Virus record (IMG/VR): IMGVR_UViG_3300042914_001976 | Coordinates: 1-21,565 of that record | Length of the DNA stretch: 21,565 bases | From: a virus | Strand: one strand, 5' to 3' | Shown: in pieces, positions 2,660 to 21,153 of the stretch | Numbering within the stretch: position 1 is the first letter of the stretch | Layout: the number at the start of each line of letters is the position of its first letter | Translations under genes and position numbers: made by a program | Notes under the pieces: generated by a model | Seen by the model: only the letters and a program-made list of their open reading frames with translations | What the model was told of the DNA's origin: nothing | Database searches by the model: none

Positions 2660-2998
2660 TCAGGGAACGACGTAGAAAGTGCCTTCCGAGTAGCGCGTCG
2701 TGACGCTCGCGGAAGTGCCCTGCAGGGCGTAGACGCCGTACTGCGGCGCGGACATGAGCGACGTGACCGAGTCATCGAACGTGCACACAATGTTTGTGTG
2801 CTGGCCCGACAGGCTCGTCGTGATCGTGCTATCCAGCGAGGAAAGGTTGAACACCTCGGTGCTAGAGCTGTGCGAGGGCTTGCCGATCAGCGTGAAGCTG
2901 TGCCCGGTAAGGTTCGCGTCAACGTGCACCGTGAAGGTGTAGTTCGCGCCCCTCTGAAGGACAAAGTCGCGCTGTGGGCTGTCTGCGTCATGCGCCAT
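2660..2998 (-). CDS. Fibre-adjacent beta-sandwich phage protein (element B)
   Basis: 112 aa starting MAHDADSPQRDFVLQRGANY, six bases downstream of the fibre stop. It follows a widespread phage pattern: 'QRGA..tF.v....' strand, a central 'G.a...' region, a 'Y.VYAL' strand and a terminal EGTFYVVP strand. The element A homologue 19226-19579 shows the pattern more clearly (IQQGATFSF, VYDIEVQD, LEGTVYITPEATR). Proteins of this type usually sit beside tail-fibre genes; biochemical function is unknown. A terminal 'GT..v.P' strand suggests a baseplate or fibre-attachment fold. Confidence 0.65.
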   Translation of the reverse strand: MAHDADSPQRDFVLQRGANYTFTVHVDANLTGHSFTLIGKPSHSSSTEVFNLSSLDSTITTSLSGQHTNIVCTFDDSVTSLMSAPQYGVYALQGTSASVTTRYSEGTFYVVP

Positions 2999-3003
2999 GG
3001 TCG

Positions 3004-3736
3004 ATCATCCGAAACAGAGGGTGCGAACTCGGACAAACCCCGCGCCGCCAGCGCCGCCGGCACCGCCTGCGGTCGATCCCTTGCCACCGCCGCCGCCGCC
3101 GCCGCCACGGACGGCCGCGCCGCCAGCGCCGCCTGTCCCCGAAGTGTGTCTGGCGCCGCCGCCACCGCCGTTGCCGAAGCCGGTCACGGTGTCGAAGCCT
3201 CCGGCAGTGCCCGCCACGCCAGTCGTGCCGCTTCCGCCGCTTGCTCCCCCGCCGCCGCGCTTGATCTGGTAGTCGTAGGTCGCATCGGCTTCACCAGATG
3301 CAGCCTTGCCGCCGGCACCAGCTGCGCCGTCAGTCGCTCCCGATCCGCCTCCACCAGGGCCCATCGGTCGGCCAACGCGGCCGTCTTCGCCACCTTCAGC
3401 GCCTTGGCCAAAGAATCCACCGCTCGGCGCGCCAATGTCGTTGGTCAACTGCCAGAAGATTGCTCCCGTCTCGCTGTCCGATCCGCCGACGGGAGCTCCC
3501 ACGAACGCCCCAGGCGCGTACAGCTTGGTGCCGAAAGAAGTTGTTGAACTGCTCGACCATGTACCGGCGGCCATCGCGGCACCACAAGTGACGGTTTCGG
3601 TAGCAGACAGATCCGCAGCGATGAAAGTCTTGCTTGAAATTCGACCAGCATTGCCGCCGCGACCACCGTTGGTCGTGTCGCCAGCTGTGCCAGCTTCGCC
3701 ACCACCGCACATCGTGACCTCGACCCACAGCGCGTT
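3004..3736. repeat. 733-bp perfect direct repeat, copy 1
   Basis: By line-by-line comparison, 3004-3736 equals 19585-20317 (offset 16,581) without a mismatch. It starts one base outside the fibre stop codon and ends at codon 69. The next 204 bp of the same gene carry 20 differences, and the genes on both sides are much more diverged. It bounds the 16.6-kb element A. Confidence 0.95.
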
Positions 3737-3940
3737 TGCCGGCTTGGTCCACGTGCCGCTGCTGGTGAAATCCTGCGTGTTGACGGTAAGCGTGCCGCCG
3801 CCGCCGATCTCCACGCCGCCGGCGGTCGTGCCGTCGCCGACGTAGAGCTTCTTGGTGTCAGTCGTGTAGATAGGCTCGCCCTGCTCGGGCGTGATCGAGG
3901 TGCGGTCGGCGGCCACGCCGCGTCGGAGCTTGAGTGCCAT
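3005..3940 (-). CDS. Glycine-rich tail fibre / receptor-binding protein, copy 1
   Basis: 311 aa. Residues 1-48 (MALKLRRG..., ITPEQGEPIYTTDTKKLYVG, DGTTAGG) match the N-terminal attachment domain found in many tail fibres, including the Mtd-type N-domain. Residues 60-85 contain the 'SGTWTKP...WVEVTMCGGG' entry strand of polyglycine adhesins. The rest is long Gly runs alternating with short loops and ends GFVRVRTLCFG, the layout expected for a polyglycine-helix sandwich that presents host-binding loops. Residues 69-311 are encoded by DNA identical to copy 2 (19586-20521), while the first 68 residues differ at five positions (about 90% DNA identity). Poly-Gly produces CCG/CCGCC repeats on the plus strand. 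Confidence 0.85.
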   Translation of the reverse strand: MALKLRRGVAADRTSITPEQGEPIYTTDTKKLYVGDGTTAGGVEIGGGGTLTVNTQDFTSSGTWTKPANALWVEVTMCGGGEAGTAGDTTNGGRGGNAGRISSKTFIAADLSATETVTCGAAMAAGTWSSSSTTSFGTKLYAPGAFVGAPVGGSDSETGAIFWQLTNDIGAPSGGFFGQGAEGGEDGRVGRPMGPGGGGSGATDGAAGAGGKAASGEADATYDYQIKRGGGGASGGSGTTGVAGTAGGFDTVTGFGNGGGGGARHTSGTGGAGGAAVRGGGGGGGGKGSTAGGAGGAGGAGFVRVRTLCFG

Positions 3941-3941
3941 G

Positions 3942-4604
3942 TCAGAAGGTCCCCATGTCGTTGGAGGGTAGGTACGGGCTCGCGAACGTCTGGAAGTCGA
4001 GGTCGTTCAGCGGGAAGGCGAATGTCGCGTAGTCGTAGGGATTGATCGCCCCGAAATCCCTGTCGCCCTCCTCCGCGTCGAACGTGCCCGCCTCAAAGTC
4101 GTTCGTCGGGAAGAAGAATGTTCCGAAGTCGTCGCCCGCGTCGAGCGGCGTCGTGCACTGGCCGTCGATCGCGTTCGGCGCGTAGAAGACCCACATCGCC
4201 TCGCCGCCGGCGCCCGAGACGATCGCCCGGTTCTGGGGGAAGATGATCACATATCCCGTGATCGGACGCACGAAGAAACCCGCGGGAATGTTGGCGGGGT
4301 CTATGCCGGGACCGATGTAGCCGGCGCTGTTGAATCCCTCGCAGACGTTGAGCGCCTGCCCGGTGTACCAGGTCTCGGCGGGCCGCACCGCGAAGGCGTT
4401 TCCCGTGCCGACGGTCGTCGGTTGGACCTCGGCCATGCTCCACGTGTAGAGCCACCGGTAGGTCCCGATCGACGTGTAGCTCTCGATCCTCGCGATGAAG
4501 AACTGCGGGCGCGCCTCTCGCACGCGGTCGATCGCCTCGGCGTCGCCCGACACGTCGGCGCGGCTGTAGGCGTGGTTCAGCTTGTTGAGCTGCGTGCGGT
4601 TCAC
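3942..4604 (-). CDS. Tail tip protein upstream of the fibre (element A)
   Basis: 220 aa from a GTG at 4604, overlapping the previous stop (GTGA). The middle (about 35-150) is beta-rich with aromatic and Gly residues. The last 60 residues hold short D-F-G-T-F type repeats (DDFGTFFFP, NDFEAGTFD, DYATFAFP, DMGTF). The homologue 20521-21153 shares the C-terminus strongly (EEGxxDxGAxNxYDYATFAFPxNDLDF) but little of the N-terminal half. Location between the tail-tip protein and the fibre suggests a connector or short fibre; the conserved C-terminus may bind the conserved fibre N-domain. No enzyme motif. Confidence 0.7.
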   Translation of the reverse strand: MNRTQLNKLNHAYSRADVSGDAEAIDRVREARPQFFIARIESYTSIGTYRWLYTWSMAEVQPTTVGTGNAFAVRPAETWYTGQALNVCEGFNSAGYIGPGIDPANIPAGFFVRPITGYVIIFPQNRAIVSGAGGEAMWVFYAPNAIDGQCTTPLDAGDDFGTFFFPTNDFEAGTFDAEEGDRDFGAINPYDYATFAFPLNDLDFQTFASPYLPSNDMGTF

Positions 4605-11879: not shown

Positions 11880-13622
11880 TCACCATTCGTCGTACATGGA
11901 GCCGCTTTGGCCTCCCCACGCGTGCACGGCGATGATCGCGGCGACGAGCGGGTCGACGATCGACCGGCGCTGTTCCTTCGTGATCGCGATGTTCCCGTTC
12001 CGGTCGCGCTTGGCGATCGCAGTCCGGCAGGCCGTCCGCATGATCGGATCGTCGGCGATCACGATCTTGCCCGACGCCCAGAGCTGTTGGAACAACTGGC
12101 ACCCAGGCCCGAACGTGGCGATCCCCATGGAGTAGGCCTCGACGTTGTGGCCGTCCTGGGCGAGGACCTCGACCATGTACTTCGAGCCCCACCGGTCATA
12201 GGCGACGGACTGCACCGACAAATGCTCCGAGACCTCGGTGAGCTTCGCGCGGATGCGCTCATAGTCGATCTCGCGCCCTGGCGTGAGCTCGATATGCCCG
12301 TTCGCCGCCCAGGTCCGCACGGGAAGGCGGTAGTCGATCTCGCGTTGGGCGACGTCTTGCTTCGGCCACCAGTACCATCCGCGCAGCACGACGCGCCCGT
12401 CTTCGAGCGGAATCGCCGCGACCATGGCCGTCATATCGAGCGTCTTCGAGAGGTCGAGGCCGATCCAGGCGGGGCGCCCGCGGAGCTCCTCCCACTCGAC
12501 GGTCTGGCCGCCTGGCCAGAGCGCCATGTCGAGCCACCCGCCCGTGTCCTCGCAGAGGCGCGCGCAGTGGTAGCGCGTGAACTCGTGGCGCCCGAGCGGG
12601 CTTTGCTTCATGGTGTTCCAGGCGCGCCGCAGGCTCTTGACGTCGGGCTGTCCGTACTCCATCGACGGGTTGGCCTTTGACCAGGCGCCTTCGTCCTCGA
12701 TCGCGTCCTCGGCGTCTAATCCGAAGAGCATCGGCATGAAGGCATCGTCCTCGACCTCGCCGCGGAGGATCGCCTCGCCGGTAGCGACCAGCTCGCCGTA
12801 GATGTTGTCGGGCTGCGCGCCGGGCGTCGTGATGATGAGGCCGAGCGATTCGCGGCGCTTGGAGCCGGTCGTGAGGAGCTTGGTGAGGAACCTCCCCTTG
12901 AATTCGGCCGCCTCGTCGGCGACCCACATCGACGGATTGAGGCCGTCGAGCGATTTCTCGAGCGCGGGAAGCGCGCTCATCTCGCAGTCGTTGGCCGGGC
13001 GGCCGATGCGGTCGAAGTAGACCTTCCACCCCTCGGCGCCGATGCGGCCGATCATGGTCTTGGCGGTGTCCAGGCAGATCTCGGCCTGGTGCTCGGTGTT
13101 CGCGAGCACGTGCACGCGGCGGCCGTCCCCCTGGGCCATGTCCCAGAGGCAGAGCCCGGCGGCGAGCGTCGTCTTGCCCGCGCCGCGGGCGACCTGGAGG
13201 ATCGCTAGCTTGACGCGTCGGCGGCGGTCCTCGGTGTACCGCCACCCCCAGAGGTTGGCCAGGACCCAGACTTGCCACGGGTGAAGCTCGAACGCGCGGC
13301 CCGAGTCGTCGCCGACGAGCGAGAGCTCGGCGAAGTGCTCTACGAGACGGTCGACCGAGTCCCAATCGAGGTAGACGTCGGCGCGCTCGAGGTCGCGGCT
13401 GAATCTCTGGCAGGCGGCGAACACCCATTTGGACGCGGGGCGCGAGCCGTCAAGCACGCTGTCGACGTACGCCGTCACGACGTCGCGCGCAGGCGTGCGA
13501 AATTTCGCGGCGCAGGACGGGTGATGACTTAGGGTCCCCCCCTTCCCCAAAATCCTACCCACCCCCTCCCCCCGTGTCGATGTGGATAACTTGTGGATAA
13601 CTTGTTCATCGTTGGGGTTCAT
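11880..13622 (-). CDS. Terminase large subunit, HK97-like (element A)
   Basis: Up to 580 aa. Packaging ATPase: 'ELHPWQVWVLANLWGW' (Q-motif region), Walker A ARGAGKTT (Lys150 from the ATG at 13622), Walker B MWVADE (233-238), coupling motif TTPG. RNase-H-like nuclease begins at 'WIGLDLSKTLDMT', with a further acidic region near 'VQSVAYDRWGS'. The family usually starts near TPARDVVTAYV (residue 43), so the first 42 codons, read through the DnaA boxes and G-tract, may be untranslated. GTG at 13562 or TTG near 13547 are alternatives; no ATG lies between. No small terminase gene is recognised; the upstream HNH gene stands in its usual place. Confidence 0.9.
   Translation of the reverse strand: MNPNDEQVIHKLSTSTRGEGVGRILGKGGTLSHHPSCAAKFRTPARDVVTAYVDSVLDGSRPASKWVFAACQRFSRDLERADVYLDWDSVDRLVEHFAELSLVGDDSGRAFELHPWQVWVLANLWGWRYTEDRRRRVKLAILQVARGAGKTTLAAGLCLWDMAQGDGRRVHVLANTEHQAEICLDTAKTMIGRIGAEGWKVYFDRIGRPANDCEMSALPALEKSLDGLNPSMWVADEAAEFKGRFLTKLLTTGSKRRESLGLIITTPGAQPDNIYGELVATGEAILRGEVEDDAFMPMLFGLDAEDAIEDEGAWSKANPSMEYGQPDVKSLRRAWNTMKQSPLGRHEFTRYHCARLCEDTGGWLDMALWPGGQTVEWEELRGRPAWIGLDLSKTLDMTAMVAAIPLEDGRVVLRGWYWWPKQDVAQREIDYRLPVRTWAANGHIELTPGREIDYERIRAKLTEVSEHLSVQSVAYDRWGSKYMVEVLAQDGHNVEAYSMGIATFGPGCQLFQQLWASGKIVIADDPIMRTACRTAIAKRDRNGNIAITKEQRRSIVDPLVAAIIAVHAWGGQSGSMYDEW
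13534..13579 (-). other. Five-run G-tract (G-quadruplex candidate) before the terminase
   Basis: On the minus strand the run order is G6, A, G5, T, G3, nine bases (TAGGATTTT), G4, AA, G7. This meets the usual definition of a quadruplex-forming motif with short loops. It lies between the DnaA boxes and the conserved part of the terminase. Confidence 0.8.
13581..13600 (-). promoter_or_regulatory. Two tandem perfect DnaA boxes
   Basis: TTATCCACA, the high-affinity DnaA 9-mer, occurs twice on the minus strand at 13581-13589 and 13592-13600, 11 bp apart (about one helical turn). It borders the G-tract and lies in the short HNH-terminase junction. This suggests a replication origin used with host DnaA, or host DnaA control of the late genes. 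Confidence 0.7.
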
Positions 13623-13896
13623 GGCCGTGTTCGATGGAATGGCAGTGGTTGCAAAGGGTTAGAAGGTTCGACCACACATACGTGAGGTCGGGCCGCACGT
13701 GTCGCGGAACGATGTGGTGCACGACGTCACCAGGCTTCCCGCATCGGGCGCAATGGGGATGCTGCATGATGTGGATGTTCCGCATCTTGCGCCACTTACC
13801 GCAGGCCACCAGGCTCTCTTTATGCACTGGCGTGCGGAACGTGCTCTTGAATGGGGGAGCGTGTCTAAACGTCTTGTGGGGGCTCTGCGGCCTCAA
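13606..13896 (-). CDS. HNH endonuclease (element A)
   Basis: Up to 96 aa. Zinc-binding CxxC pairs at 49/52 and 82/85, DVVHHIVP with His60/61, Asn77, and CNHCHSIEHG with His86/90 form the beta-beta-alpha metal fold of HNH nucleases. Phage HNH proteins beside TerL often assist DNA packaging or cleavage. The start is uncertain: TTG at 13896 overlaps the resolvase gene by 32 bp, while GTG at 13827 would give 73 aa and keep all motifs. The stop overlaps the furthest terminase ATG by 17 bp. Confidence 0.85.
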   Translation of the reverse strand: MRPQSPHKTFRHAPPFKSTFRTPVHKESLVACGKWRKMRNIHIMQHPHCARCGKPGDVVHHIVPRHVRPDLTYVWSNLLTLCNHCHSIEHGHEPQR

Positions 13897-14242
13897 TGCG
13901 TTCCCTCCGTACGTGACGGGCGCTCGAGCACTGGACCGAATCCTCGACCCAGTGCTCGAGCTGCATGATCGCGAGCCATGGGCGGCCGTTCGAGCGGTGG
14001 AGGATCACCCAGGGGCGCCCATGGGCGTCGCGCCGGCACTGCTCGACGGCCTTGCCGAGCTCGAGCCGTTCGGTGCGCTTGACCTCGACGTGGAGGTTCA
14101 TGCCCTCGCAGACGATGTCGGCGGCCGTACCGGCCTTGCCGCAGTACTGCGCCGTCCGACGGCAGAGCATCCCGAGCCTGTTGAGCTCCTGGACGATCTC
14201 ACGCTCGCCGACGGCGCCTTTCCTACGTTGCATCCCACCCAT
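13865..14242 (-). CDS. Holliday-junction-resolvase-like / PD-(D/E)xK nuclease (element A)
   Basis: 125 aa from the ATG at 14242, with GGAG nine bases upstream. Motifs: Glu13 in GEREIVQEL, Asp42 in ADIV, Glu53-x-Lys55 in HVEVKRTERL, and Gln68 in a helix, the order seen in archaeal-type Hjc and phage resolvases. It would resolve branched replication or packaging intermediates. It is separated from the primase-helicase by structured DNA and overlaps the HNH gene downstream. In-frame codons further upstream run through the inverted repeats and are unlikely to be used. Confidence 0.75.
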   Translation of the reverse strand: MGGMQRRKGAVGEREIVQELNRLGMLCRRTAQYCGKAGTAADIVCEGMNLHVEVKRTERLELGKAVEQCRRDAHGRPWVILHRSNGRPWLAIMQLEHWVEDSVQCSSARHVRRERIEAAEPPQDV

Positions 14243-14280
14243 TTCGATTTTCTCCACCGGGGGTACTTGCGCGTACTTGA

Positions 14281-14340
14281 CGGGGGAATTACGCTCTTCA
14301 GGCGCGCTTGACAAGCGAGCCGTGAGAGCGTAATCCCCCG
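14281..14340. repeat. Long inverted repeat with nested hairpin
   Basis: Left arm 14281-14297 and right arm 14325-14340 match over 16 bp with one bulged A (CGGGGGAATTACGCTCT against its complement). The 27-nt loop contains a second hairpin, CGCTT-GAC-AAGCG (14305-14317). It lies in the 128-bp gap between primase-helicase and resolvase. Confidence 0.8.
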
Positions 14341-14359
14341 GAAGAGTACACGCAAACCC

Positions 14360-14385
14360 AAGGCCACGGTTCATTCCGTGGCCTT
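14360..14385. terminator. 10-bp perfect hairpin at the end of the primase-helicase gene
   Basis: AAGGCCACGG (14360-14369) pairs with CCGTGGCCTT (14376-14385) over a 6-nt loop. It overlaps the last codons of the primase-helicase. The minus strand has only a weak T-tract after it (GGGTTT); the plus strand has TTCTTT. Terminator role is plausible, orientation uncertain. Confidence 0.45.
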
Positions 14386-15960
14386 GTTCTTTGATTTCGG
14401 CGAGCCGTGCAACGCCTCGAGGTCTCCCACGACCGTGTCGGTGAACGTGGGGTAGTCCCATCGGATCGCGAGTTTGCCGGGCCGCTTCGAGCTGCGCGTG
14501 TTCATCTGCTCGACGAATACGTCCTCCTCTTCATGCTTGAACAGCACGATGTGGGTGTCGACGGCTCGGCCGAGAGCGCCGGCTCCCGATCCTGCGTCGA
14601 TCGAGTCTTTGTTCGCCTGGTTGCCCTTGGCGGTGTGGTGGACAAGCACCACGCACGCGGACATCCGCGAGGCGTAGCGCGAGAACGCCCGTAGGAGCAC
14701 GGTCATGTCGGCGTTGCTGTTCTCGTCCATGCCCTTCTCGAGGAACCGATACAGGGCGTCGAAGATGACCAGGTCGTATTTCCCGAGCCCCTCGAGCTGC
14801 TCGAGCACGCTCTCGGCCGAGAGCGACGTCTCCCGGAGGCTTATCAAGTCGATCTTGTCCACGATCCTGGGCACAGAGATGCCCTTGGCGCGCATGACCT
14901 CTCGCATCCGGTGCGCCATCTCGTTCCGCGTAAGCTCGTTGTCGACCACGCAAACCCGCCCCTCGGCGACGTTCCAATGGCCGTGCCATCGGTTGCCCGT
15001 GGCGCACGCAAGCGCCAGGTCGGCCAAGAGGAACGACTTGGCGCACTTTGGCGGGGCGATGAGGCAGGCGACTTCGCCCCGCCTGAGCACGCCCTCGATC
15101 AGGTACGGGGTGCGTACGGGATGCTCCTCGAGGAGCGCCGCCAAGGAGATGGCCGGCAGGGGCTCTAGGGTCGCCTCTGAGGCGGGGGCGGCCGCGAGGG
15201 CTCCTCGGACCGTCCGTTCGACGTAGTCGGCCCTAGCGGCCTTCTCCTGCCTTCCCTCGCCCCGCATCTTCTCGACGAGCCGTGCCGTCATCTCCTCGGC
15301 TCGGAACCCACGTGCCGCGAGGTCGCAGCAGTAGGCCCAATCGGCCGCACTCGGGTCTCCTGCGGTACTCGGCGGTATCGCTGCGGTATTGGATGGCTTG
15401 GCCGGCTCCGGCTTGCGAAGGTACTTTTCGCACACCTCGTCCACGGCACCCTGAGCGTCGTTGACGTCCCGCCCGGTGAAGAGCCGGTCGCCCGTCACCG
15501 TGAAGAACCTTGCCTTTTGGTAGACCTCGACGGGTCCCCGCCGGTTCTGCGACCACTCGGGAAGTTCCACATTGTGGAAGATGGCGTGGACGCCCGTCTT
15601 GGACGGCGACCACTCCATGTAGGTCCCGCAGTCGCGGCCCCAGTCCCAGACGAACTCGCGCAGCGCCTTGGACTCGGGCGCGTCGAGGTTGTCGAAGTCG
15701 ATGCCGAGCCATCCGTCGCCGAGCATGAACCCGATGCCGAGCGCGACGTCGCCGTTCGCGACCTCGACGGCGTCCATGAACGACCCCCACGTGCTCGGGT
15801 CGGTGCTCGAGGCGGCGCCTCCGGTCTCGGGGTCGATGGGCATTTTGGTCCACCGCCCGTCCCGCTCGACGGCCCGCCAGTTCACCCATCTCCGCGCCGC
15901 CGTCATGGCCTCGGGGATGTCCTCGATCTCGAACGTGGTCCTGCCTTTCACGCTGCCCAT
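14371..15960 (-). CDS. Primase-polymerase-like / RepA-type helicase replication protein (element A)
   Basis: 529 aa with AAAGGAGG seven bases before the ATG. Residues 20-160 resemble the N-terminal domain of phage NrS-1-type and bifunctional primase-polymerases ('WVNWRAVERDGRWTKMPIDP', 'ASSTDPSTW', 'GIGFML', 'LGIDFDN'). Residues 280-500 form a RepA/AAA_25-type hexameric helicase: Walker A APPKCAKS (302-309, Lys308), Walker B LVIFDALYRF (Asp401), and LVHHTAKGN (439-447). Both glycines of the canonical Walker A are replaced by alanine, which is unusual. It is the only clear replication enzyme in the element and probably opens and primes the origin. A terminator lies upstream. Confidence 0.85.
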   Translation of the reverse strand: MGSVKGRTTFEIEDIPEAMTAARRWVNWRAVERDGRWTKMPIDPETGGAASSTDPSTWGSFMDAVEVANGDVALGIGFMLGDGWLGIDFDNLDAPESKALREFVWDWGRDCGTYMEWSPSKTGVHAIFHNVELPEWSQNRRGPVEVYQKARFFTVTGDRLFTGRDVNDAQGAVDEVCEKYLRKPEPAKPSNTAAIPPSTAGDPSAADWAYCCDLAARGFRAEEMTARLVEKMRGEGRQEKAARADYVERTVRGALAAAPASEATLEPLPAISLAALLEEHPVRTPYLIEGVLRRGEVACLIAPPKCAKSFLLADLALACATGNRWHGHWNVAEGRVCVVDNELTRNEMAHRMREVMRAKGISVPRIVDKIDLISLRETSLSAESVLEQLEGLGKYDLVIFDALYRFLEKGMDENSNADMTVLLRAFSRYASRMSACVVLVHHTAKGNQANKDSIDAGSGAGALGRAVDTHIVLFKHEEEDVFVEQMNTRSSKRPGKLAIRWDYPTFTDTVVGDLEALHGSPKSKNKATE

Positions 15961-19225: not shown

Positions 19226-19579
19226 TTACCTCGTTGCTTCCGGGGTTATGTATACGGTGCCCTCCAGGATGCGGAGCACGATGCCCGACGCGGTATCCTG
19301 GACTTCGATGTCGTAGACGCCCGTCCAGGGCGCCGAGAATCCTGCGGTCTTCGTCGCGGAAAGGGTGACGCCGATATCGGAATGCGCCCCGTGAGCCACC
19401 CACGAGATCTCAGTCGGGTTGGTCACGCTGTCGATCGCGAACATGGTCGTGCTCGAGGCGTGCTGCGCGCGCGCCTTCATCCGCGCCGTCTGTCCCGCGT
19501 TGTGCGCGACGTGGAGGATGTGCTCCTGAAATGAGAACGTAGCGCCCTGTTGGATGATGAGGTCTCGTCCGATCGTCAT
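19226..19579 (-). CDS. Fibre-adjacent beta-sandwich phage protein (element A)
   Basis: 117 aa. 'RDLIIQQGATFSFQEHI', 'GQTARMKARAQ', 'TGVYDIEVQDTASGIVLRILEGTVYITPEATR' is a clear example of the 'QGATF...YDLEV...R.LEG.V.V.PEVTR' phage family seen beside tail fibres. The start lies six bases downstream of the fibre stop. Clearer family match than its element B counterpart (2660-2998). Confidence 0.75.
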   Translation of the reverse strand: MTIGRDLIIQQGATFSFQEHILHVAHNAGQTARMKARAQHASSTTMFAIDSVTNPTEISWVAHGAHSDIGVTLSATKTAGFSAPWTGVYDIEVQDTASGIVLRILEGTVYITPEATR

Positions 19580-19584
19580 GATTT

Positions 19585-20317
19585 ATCATCCGAAACAGAG
19601 GGTGCGAACTCGGACAAACCCCGCGCCGCCAGCGCCGCCGGCACCGCCTGCGGTCGATCCCTTGCCACCGCCGCCGCCGCCGCCGCCACGGACGGCCGCG
19701 CCGCCAGCGCCGCCTGTCCCCGAAGTGTGTCTGGCGCCGCCGCCACCGCCGTTGCCGAAGCCGGTCACGGTGTCGAAGCCTCCGGCAGTGCCCGCCACGC
19801 CAGTCGTGCCGCTTCCGCCGCTTGCTCCCCCGCCGCCGCGCTTGATCTGGTAGTCGTAGGTCGCATCGGCTTCACCAGATGCAGCCTTGCCGCCGGCACC
19901 AGCTGCGCCGTCAGTCGCTCCCGATCCGCCTCCACCAGGGCCCATCGGTCGGCCAACGCGGCCGTCTTCGCCACCTTCAGCGCCTTGGCCAAAGAATCCA
20001 CCGCTCGGCGCGCCAATGTCGTTGGTCAACTGCCAGAAGATTGCTCCCGTCTCGCTGTCCGATCCGCCGACGGGAGCTCCCACGAACGCCCCAGGCGCGT
20101 ACAGCTTGGTGCCGAAAGAAGTTGTTGAACTGCTCGACCATGTACCGGCGGCCATCGCGGCACCACAAGTGACGGTTTCGGTAGCAGACAGATCCGCAGC
20201 GATGAAAGTCTTGCTTGAAATTCGACCAGCATTGCCGCCGCGACCACCGTTGGTCGTGTCGCCAGCTGTGCCAGCTTCGCCACCACCGCACATCGTGACC
20301 TCGACCCACAGCGCGTT
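19585..20317. repeat. 733-bp perfect direct repeat, copy 2
   Basis: Identical to 3004-3736, same orientation. Left junction is one base outside the fibre stop codon; right junction is at codon 69 of the fibre, after which identity falls to about 90% over 204 bp. Confidence 0.95.
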
Positions 20318-20521
20318 CGCCGGCTTGGTCCACGTGCCGCTCGCGGTGAAATCCTGCGTGTTGACGGTGAGCGTGCCGCCGCCGCCGATCTCCACGCCGC
20401 CGGCGGTCGTGCCGTCGCCGATGTACAGCTTCTTGGTGTCGGTGGTGTAGATCGGCTCGCCCTGTGCGGGCGTGATTCCCGTGCGGTCGGCGTTGACGCC
20501 GCGTCGTAGCTTGAGTGCCAT
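19586..20521 (-). CDS. Glycine-rich tail fibre / receptor-binding protein, copy 2
   Basis: 311 aa, same architecture as 3005-3940. Differs from copy 1 only at residues 10, 15, 19, 34 and 60; residues 69-311 are identical at DNA level. The start codon shares one base with the preceding stop (TAATG). If the perfect repeat marks a crossover, the C-terminal DNA of this copy continues into element A late genes while its N-terminal DNA belongs to element B. Confidence 0.85.
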   Translation of the reverse strand: MALKLRRGVNADRTGITPAQGEPIYTTDTKKLYIGDGTTAGGVEIGGGGTLTVNTQDFTASGTWTKPANALWVEVTMCGGGEAGTAGDTTNGGRGGNAGRISSKTFIAADLSATETVTCGAAMAAGTWSSSSTTSFGTKLYAPGAFVGAPVGGSDSETGAIFWQLTNDIGAPSGGFFGQGAEGGEDGRVGRPMGPGGGGSGATDGAAGAGGKAASGEADATYDYQIKRGGGGASGGSGTTGVAGTAGGFDTVTGFGNGGGGGARHTSGTGGAGGAAVRGGGGGGGGKGSTAGGAGGAGGAGFVRVRTLCFG

Positions 20522-21153
20522 TAGGTGAAGGTCCCCATGTCGTTTTCAGGGAGATATGGGTTCGCGAACGTCGCGAAGTCCAGGTCATTCATCGGGAACG
20601 CGAACGTGGCGTAGTCGTACACGTTGACTGCGCCGTAGTCCGTCTCGCCCTCTTCTGCGTCGAACGTGCCGTACTCGTCATCGAGCAGCGGCTGCAGGAT
20701 GCTGCCGTAGTCGGTGTCGCCCGTCAGCGGTGTGTCGCAGAGGCCGTCGATGGCCTGCGTGTTGAGGATCAGCCACAGCAGCGTCCCGTCTTGGTTGCGG
20801 TGCGGGACCGCGAGGACGAACGTGTTGATCGGGATCGGCTTCGCGGTGAACCCTGCGGGAAGGTTCGTCTTTGTGACGCCGTACGCGTAGAACGCGCTGG
20901 CGTTCGACAGCTCGCTGACCGACAGGCCGGTATGAGGGTACGTGTTGGCCGTCGTGGCTACCTGGTAGCCGCCGGCGACGTTCTGCACGCGCGCCTGATA
21001 CAGCGTGTACACGTACCGCGCCTGGCCAGCATTGAGCACCGTCGTGTCGGTGATCTTGAAGAGGCGAGATTCCACGCCCTCGATCTCAGGCGACAGCCGG
21101 GCCGCCTTGTCGAGGTCCTTCTGCCTGCGGTACGTGTAGTCCGCGCGGTACAT
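20521..21153 (-). CDS. Tail tip protein upstream of the fibre (element B)
   Basis: 210 aa from the ATG at 21153, which overlaps the previous stop by one base (TGATG). The first 30 residues are charged and helical (YRADYTYRRQKDLDKAARLSPEIE); the middle is beta-rich; the end has D-[YF]-G type repeats (DTDYGSI, DEYGTFD, ETDYGAVN, YDYATFAFP, DMGTF). C-terminus strongly shared with 3942-4604, N-terminal half weakly. Confidence 0.7.
   Translation of the reverse strand: MYRADYTYRRQKDLDKAARLSPEIEGVESRLFKITDTTVLNAGQARYVYTLYQARVQNVAGGYQVATTANTYPHTGLSVSELSNASAFYAYGVTKTNLPAGFTAKPIPINTFVLAVPHRNQDGTLLWLILNTQAIDGLCDTPLTGDTDYGSILQPLLDDEYGTFDAEEGETDYGAVNVYDYATFAFPMNDLDFATFANPYLPENDMGTFT

Follow-up and report, generated by a model that had tools for sequence, protein, structure and literature searches.

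The DNA analyzed here, which we refer to as the window, is a 21,565-bp IMG/VR virus contig (IMGVR_UViG_3300042914_001976) that is classed as linear. Comparison of this DNA with its relatives leads us to conclude, with a probability of roughly 0.88, that the stretch preceding the terminase large subunit (TerL) gene is the cos site of a small (~16-17.5 kb) tailed phage. Comparison of contigs shows the virion genome to be linear, with a left end that begins at TerL and a right end 9 bp away on the side of an HNH endonuclease gene. The predicted function is an ordinary one that contig ends reveal in an uncultured phage group, and a double DnaA box is its unusual neighbor. If correct, this reading uses metagenome contigs alone to locate the cut and define the cohesive end in a large group of uncultured, very small tailed phages, and it suggests that contig ends across relatives can expose packaging sites. 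It also separates a conserved packaging element, a run of G residues, from a lineage-variable site for host DnaA, and it points to a different candidate for the replication origin.

The site lies between two genes encoded on the minus strand. At the right end of the genome is the HNH endonuclease gene (positions 13606-13896; 96 amino acids; Pfam PF01844, 1.1e-9, and PHROG HNH families), and on the other side is TerL (11880-13550; PF20441, 2.4e-33; PF03354, 7e-14; phrog_9, 1.3e-113), the start codon of which is uncertain. Candidate TerL start codons are TTG at 13550, GTG at 13478, and ATG at 13622. The frame is open up to ATG 13622 in the window; because this frame is not open in relative L133 and L121 lacks the ATG, the true TerL start probably lies further in. 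No terminase small subunit (TerS) was recognized among the proteins scanned, which were part of the gene set. We found no DNA relatives among named phages, and TerL is only ~29% identical to the TerL proteins of named phages. Likewise, no relatives of TerL were found in bacterial genomes, and positions 13300-14700 produced no Rfam family at the gathering score.

Ends of the linear genome at the HNH-TerL junction

The initial annotation had suggested a packaging site just upstream of TerL, and it is there that the contig ends of relatives cluster. Approximately 30 related metagenomic contigs share an end at a single aligned position, which lies 22 nt beyond the last G run. In the window, these aligned contig starts place the first base of the left end (TGCGCCGCGAAATTT...) at position 13514 on the minus strand, which is the T that follows CACCCGTCC and opens TGCGCCGCG. 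When left ends were compared with siblings that span the junction, 26 were exact and another 5 fell within 1 nt, out of ~38 that could be placed, in a tally counted by hand from the alignments that leaves out contigs too divergent to place; ~7 placeable left-end contigs do not start at that base. Direct starts at the left-end base are seen in L124, L125, L126, L132, and L134, and the lineages that share this end include ones with TerL proteins down to ~53% identity with that of the window. Contigs that do not end at cos are L122, L123, L130, L137, L344, and L347 on the left and L362, L369, L182, and L183 on the right.

On the HNH side, the right-end contigs of ten relatives (L162, L163, L205, L210, L357, L359, L366, L367, L368, and L371) stop at the base equivalent to position 13524, which by analogy with them would be the last base of the right end in the window (...ACCCTAAGTCAT, minus strand). 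These HNH-side contigs finish 9 nt before the left-end base, with terminal sequences such as ...GGTGC, ...GGGAAT, and ...CTCAT. The 9-nt segment is present in relatives that span the junction, where it reads CACCCGTCC, CGCCTGTAA, CCGTCCGCA, CACACCGCC, or CACCTGTCT, and it is absent from left-end and right-end contigs alike. The exceptions are a few end contigs that differ by 1-2 nt or run into the 9-nt segment, and the left end of L357 points to 7-9 missing nt. The simplest reading is a staggered cut that produces a 3' cohesive end of 9 nt, CACCCGTCC at positions 13515-13523 (minus strand) in the window. The polarity of this overhang is inferred, since it is read from bases missing from contig ends. 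The description of PhageTerm accounts for this pattern in 3' cos phages: 3' overhangs are lost during end repair, and cos ends come to lie at contig limits in assemblies (PMC5557969).

Eight genome-length contigs (15.8-17.2 kb) have both of their ends at cos (L179, L180, L357, L359, L366, L367, L368, and L371), and each starts on the TerL side and stops on the HNH side. There are also circular assemblies in which the junction is intact, namely L172, L177, L352, L363 (127-bp end overlap), and L360 (87 bp). The window itself is longer than one genome unit (~17.3 kb) and is perhaps a strain-mixed, wrap-around assembly. A tail-fibre-like region occurs in it twice (2993-4088 and 19574-20670, 94.7% identity), and neighboring genes have weaker copies. 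A further record, IMGVR_UViG_3300042866_001699 (L333, L343), is likewise an assembly of more than one unit: it is 26.9 kb long and contains TerL twice, along with two pairs of boxes.

We considered the possibility that the contig ends at the junction simply reflect failures of sequencing or assembly at G-runs, in which case there would be no physical end. G-runs are hard to sequence, and L122, L137/L183, L182, and L344 do end in or near runs. However, the left ends are located beyond the G run rather than inside it, with most of them at one base ~42 nt past the conserved G-run and the right ends ~33 nt past it. Moreover, the same 9 nt are missing across divergent lineages, whereas dropout would be expected to scatter ends within a read length. 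We therefore regard a sequencing or assembly artifact as very improbable and favor a physical end at cos. Two contigs open with short foreign-looking sequences, CCGATCT at positions 1-7 of L304 and GCTCTTCCGATCT at positions 1-13 of L337, which from their appearance we take to be Illumina adapter remnants; the one in L304 directly adjoins the predicted left end, which is what ligation to a physical end would produce.

The predicted cos site resembles that of HK97, in which the ends carry 10-nt 3' overhangs and the HNH protein GP74 stimulates cos cleavage (PMC9410871). What appears to be shared with HK97 is a linear genome with ends fixed at one site, a short 3' overhang (9 nt missing from both end types in contigs, within the ~9-12 nt taken for this type), and HNH endonuclease and TerL genes that flank the cut and take part in packaging (PMC9410871). 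Unlike HK97, the overhang is 9 nt long and of another sequence, the HNH and TerL genes directly face each other across the junction, a G-run stands at fixed spacing, no TerS was recognized among the scanned proteins, and DnaA boxes are present in some lineages. The Microbacterium cluster EE phages, such as Burgy (17.45 kb), share the size, siphovirus layout, 3' overhangs, and right-end HNH gene (PMC9670927). Burgy differs in that it has no DnaA box sequence TTATCCACA anywhere, no G-run at its ends, and two small genes before TerL.

A G-run at fixed spacing from the cut

The G-run tract occupies positions 13536-13573 and, read on the minus strand, consists of G6 (13573-13568), G5 (13566-13562), G3 (13560-13558), G4 (13548-13545), and G7 (13542-13536). 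The run before TAGGATTTT, which ends at 13558, is 34 bp from the right end in the window. A run of at least five G residues was observed in 41/41 cos regions compared, and in every one of these regions the last run before a T lies ~30-34 bp from the right end (30-44 bp when measured from the first run); we picked the right-end anchors manually, using the end contigs and sibling contigs, and the 41 regions do not represent independent lineages. Within each genome, a run of six or more G residues with TA after it is found essentially nowhere but at cos. Given this constant distance from the right end, the alignments identify a G-run with a T after it, located ~33 bp inward of the right end, as a fixed-geometry part of cos. 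In the mechanism we propose, HNH and TerL would together cut concatemers at cos, as in HK97, and the G-run would position the packaging complex.

A role in ribosome binding cannot fully explain the G-run, since the run is kept in relatives in which TerL starts well beyond the left end (>50 nt; L213, L215, L218, L359, and L371). In several clades, a TTG or ATG lies ~7 nt after the G run in the TerL frame, and an influence of the run on terminase translation is possible in some clades only. The initial annotation had gone further and described the runs as a G-quadruplex motif. According to this idea, the runs would fold into a quadruplex that controls replication, packaging, or TerL translation, and the dense G tracts on the coding strand are compatible with it, as are the start codons ~7 nt after the run in some clades. 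However, the canonical four-tract pattern (G3+N1-7) is not matched in the window, where the loop TAGGATTTT is 9 nt long, and it is found in only 4/41 relatives. The conserved unit is instead a single run whose distance to the cut stays constant, even where TerL starts >50 nt past the left end. A regulatory quadruplex is thus highly unlikely, and the G-run is better read as a packaging element.

DnaA boxes beside the probable cos site

Two exact copies of the DnaA box TTATCCACA are located on the minus strand just past the stop codon of the HNH gene, between HNH and TerL. Box 1 (13592-13600) and box 2 (13581-13589) are 11 bp apart from start to start, which leaves a 2-bp gap, and they are the only exact copies in the whole 21.6-kb record. 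Under a first-order Markov model, chance would yield 0.02 single boxes and ~2e-7 pairs on the same strand within 30 bp of each other. Exact boxes were counted over the entire records of 65 relatives, and the 28 genome-length relatives contain 27 of them versus 0.64 expected. For 200 shuffled 9-mers used as a control, the 95th percentile was 4 and the maximum 27, a maximum that may be the motif itself. Thus, the two perfect boxes that the initial annotation had placed beside the G6-G5-G3-G4-G7 runs are present as described, and its view that they are unlikely by chance agrees with these counts.

Nearly all boxes of the genome-length relatives lie within ~110 bp of the right end at cos. Clusters beyond chance range from the pair in the window to four exact boxes in L133, with three in L206 and L323 and a single inverted box in L128-L131; the double box AGTTATCCACAAGTTATCCACA recurs in several lineages. 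Exact boxes thus recur at one location in a number of divergent lineages, and they are missing from others: they occur in 18/41 cos regions compared. Since the remaining 23/41 have none, the boxes are not essential to cos. The records of L292, L348, L300, and L337 contain one more exact DnaA box, which lies on the other strand at a distance of ~610-690 bp from those at cos.

The boxes are probable host-DnaA sites, and the double box of the window in particular is likely to bind host DnaA. In vivo, E. coli DnaA favors two boxes that are separated by 2-3 bp, and DnaA can reportedly halt RNA polymerase as a roadblock (PMC11317965). The double-box sites in E. coli likewise consist of two TTATCCACA boxes with the preferred 2-bp gap (PMC11317965), whereas the predicted pair in the window is in a phage, beside cos. 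In some lineages, including that of the window, the predicted double box has this preferred gap and stands just upstream of the G-run, where host DnaA would most likely bind it. Bound DnaA may help the circularized genome to replicate, or it may block transcription between the early genes and cos/TerL, either of which is a weakly drawn suggestion. A more speculative idea is that host DnaA on the double box beside cos links the onset of packaging to phage replication or to the removal of transcription from cos. We consider such coupling improbable; if true, the host initiator would have been recruited as an accessory factor of the packaging site. The titles and abstracts scanned contained no report linking DnaA boxes with a cos site.

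We also weighed whether the boxes form the replication origin, such that host DnaA would bind, open the DNA, and load the replisome at the HNH-TerL junction. The exact double box with its preferred gap argues for this, as do the enrichment of boxes over expectation and the recurrence of 1-4 exact boxes at this location across several divergent lineages. However, more than half of the cos regions are boxless, and L182 is boxless even though its PrimPol is 77% identical to that of the window (the right end of L182 may be slightly short). In addition, the detrended cumulative GC-skew minimum, which had been expected to mark an origin at the HNH-TerL junction, lies at 0.38-0.77 of the genome in 27 genome-length relatives, far from cos, and comes within 8% of cos in 0/27. 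The phage also has its own PrimPol-helicase gene with a conserved stem-loop beside it. An origin at the boxes is therefore doubtful. GC skew was set aside as an indicator of an origin at cos, since its extremes are common to boxed and boxless genomes, mostly lie elsewhere, and are gene-driven.

A stem-loop downstream of the PrimPol-helicase gene

The PrimPol/AAA_25 primase-helicase gene (14371-15960, minus strand; PF13481, 8e-32; PF22448, 8.5e-7) matches the primase structures 6a9w (PDB, 1.4e-15) and 7ola. Directly downstream of it is a long, covarying stem-loop (14259-14360, minus strand) with an invariant GTCAA...CAA flank, ~0.7 kb from the boxes. Among nine sequences, 8 of its 14 base pairs are changed on both sides, versus 4.3 expected in shuffles, a result reached in 0/500 of them, and slid controls fall far below its covariation score. 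A model of the stem-loop finds L168, which was not used in building it, with an E value of 6.7e-11, and the match in L168 is also just after the primase gene.

In the plasmid pRN1, replication requires a stem-loop of ~100 nt that follows the PrimPol gene (PMC4234260). The element in the window shares with it this size, the position right after a primase-helicase gene, and a structure that is kept while the sequence changes (PMC4234260). It differs in the helicase, since the domain in the window is AAA_25 (RecA-like) by Pfam rather than the SF3 type of pRN1. From these sequence comparisons, the stem-loop is a better candidate for the origin than the DnaA boxes; alternatively, it may function as a terminator or a regulatory RNA.

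We tentatively consider an arrangement in which the stem-loop acts as the origin, in line with the proposal for pRN1, and the DnaA boxes control transcription, for example as a roadblock between the early genes and TerL, although we hold this at somewhat below even odds. The compensatory changes, the independent member found by the model, and the pRN1 precedent speak for the first part, and the reported ability of DnaA to block RNA polymerase (PMC11317965) speaks for the second. Against the first part, the model finds no stem-loop in relatives with another primase type, and the element has the alternative roles named above. Against the second, box orientation is mixed among relatives, and a terminator hairpin in place of the boxes in boxless relatives is not supported. 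Such a hairpin was rejected as folding z-scores were no different, with medians of 0.07 in boxless and 0.37 in boxed relatives and values below -2 in 3/22 and 2/15, respectively.

Two other candidates were discarded. Lowest folding energy was not discriminating as an origin marker in these high-GC genomes, and a G-run motif shared between cos and the stem-loop did not hold up, as C-runs lie beside the stem-loop in some relatives only. Relatives without a detectable match to the primase of the window (L352, L356, L359, L361, L362, L363, and L371) have paired C7-C10 runs ~3 nt apart, and in L352, L356, L361, L362, and L363 a hairpin with weak matches to the stem-loop model (E 0.02-0.04) lies beside these paired runs.
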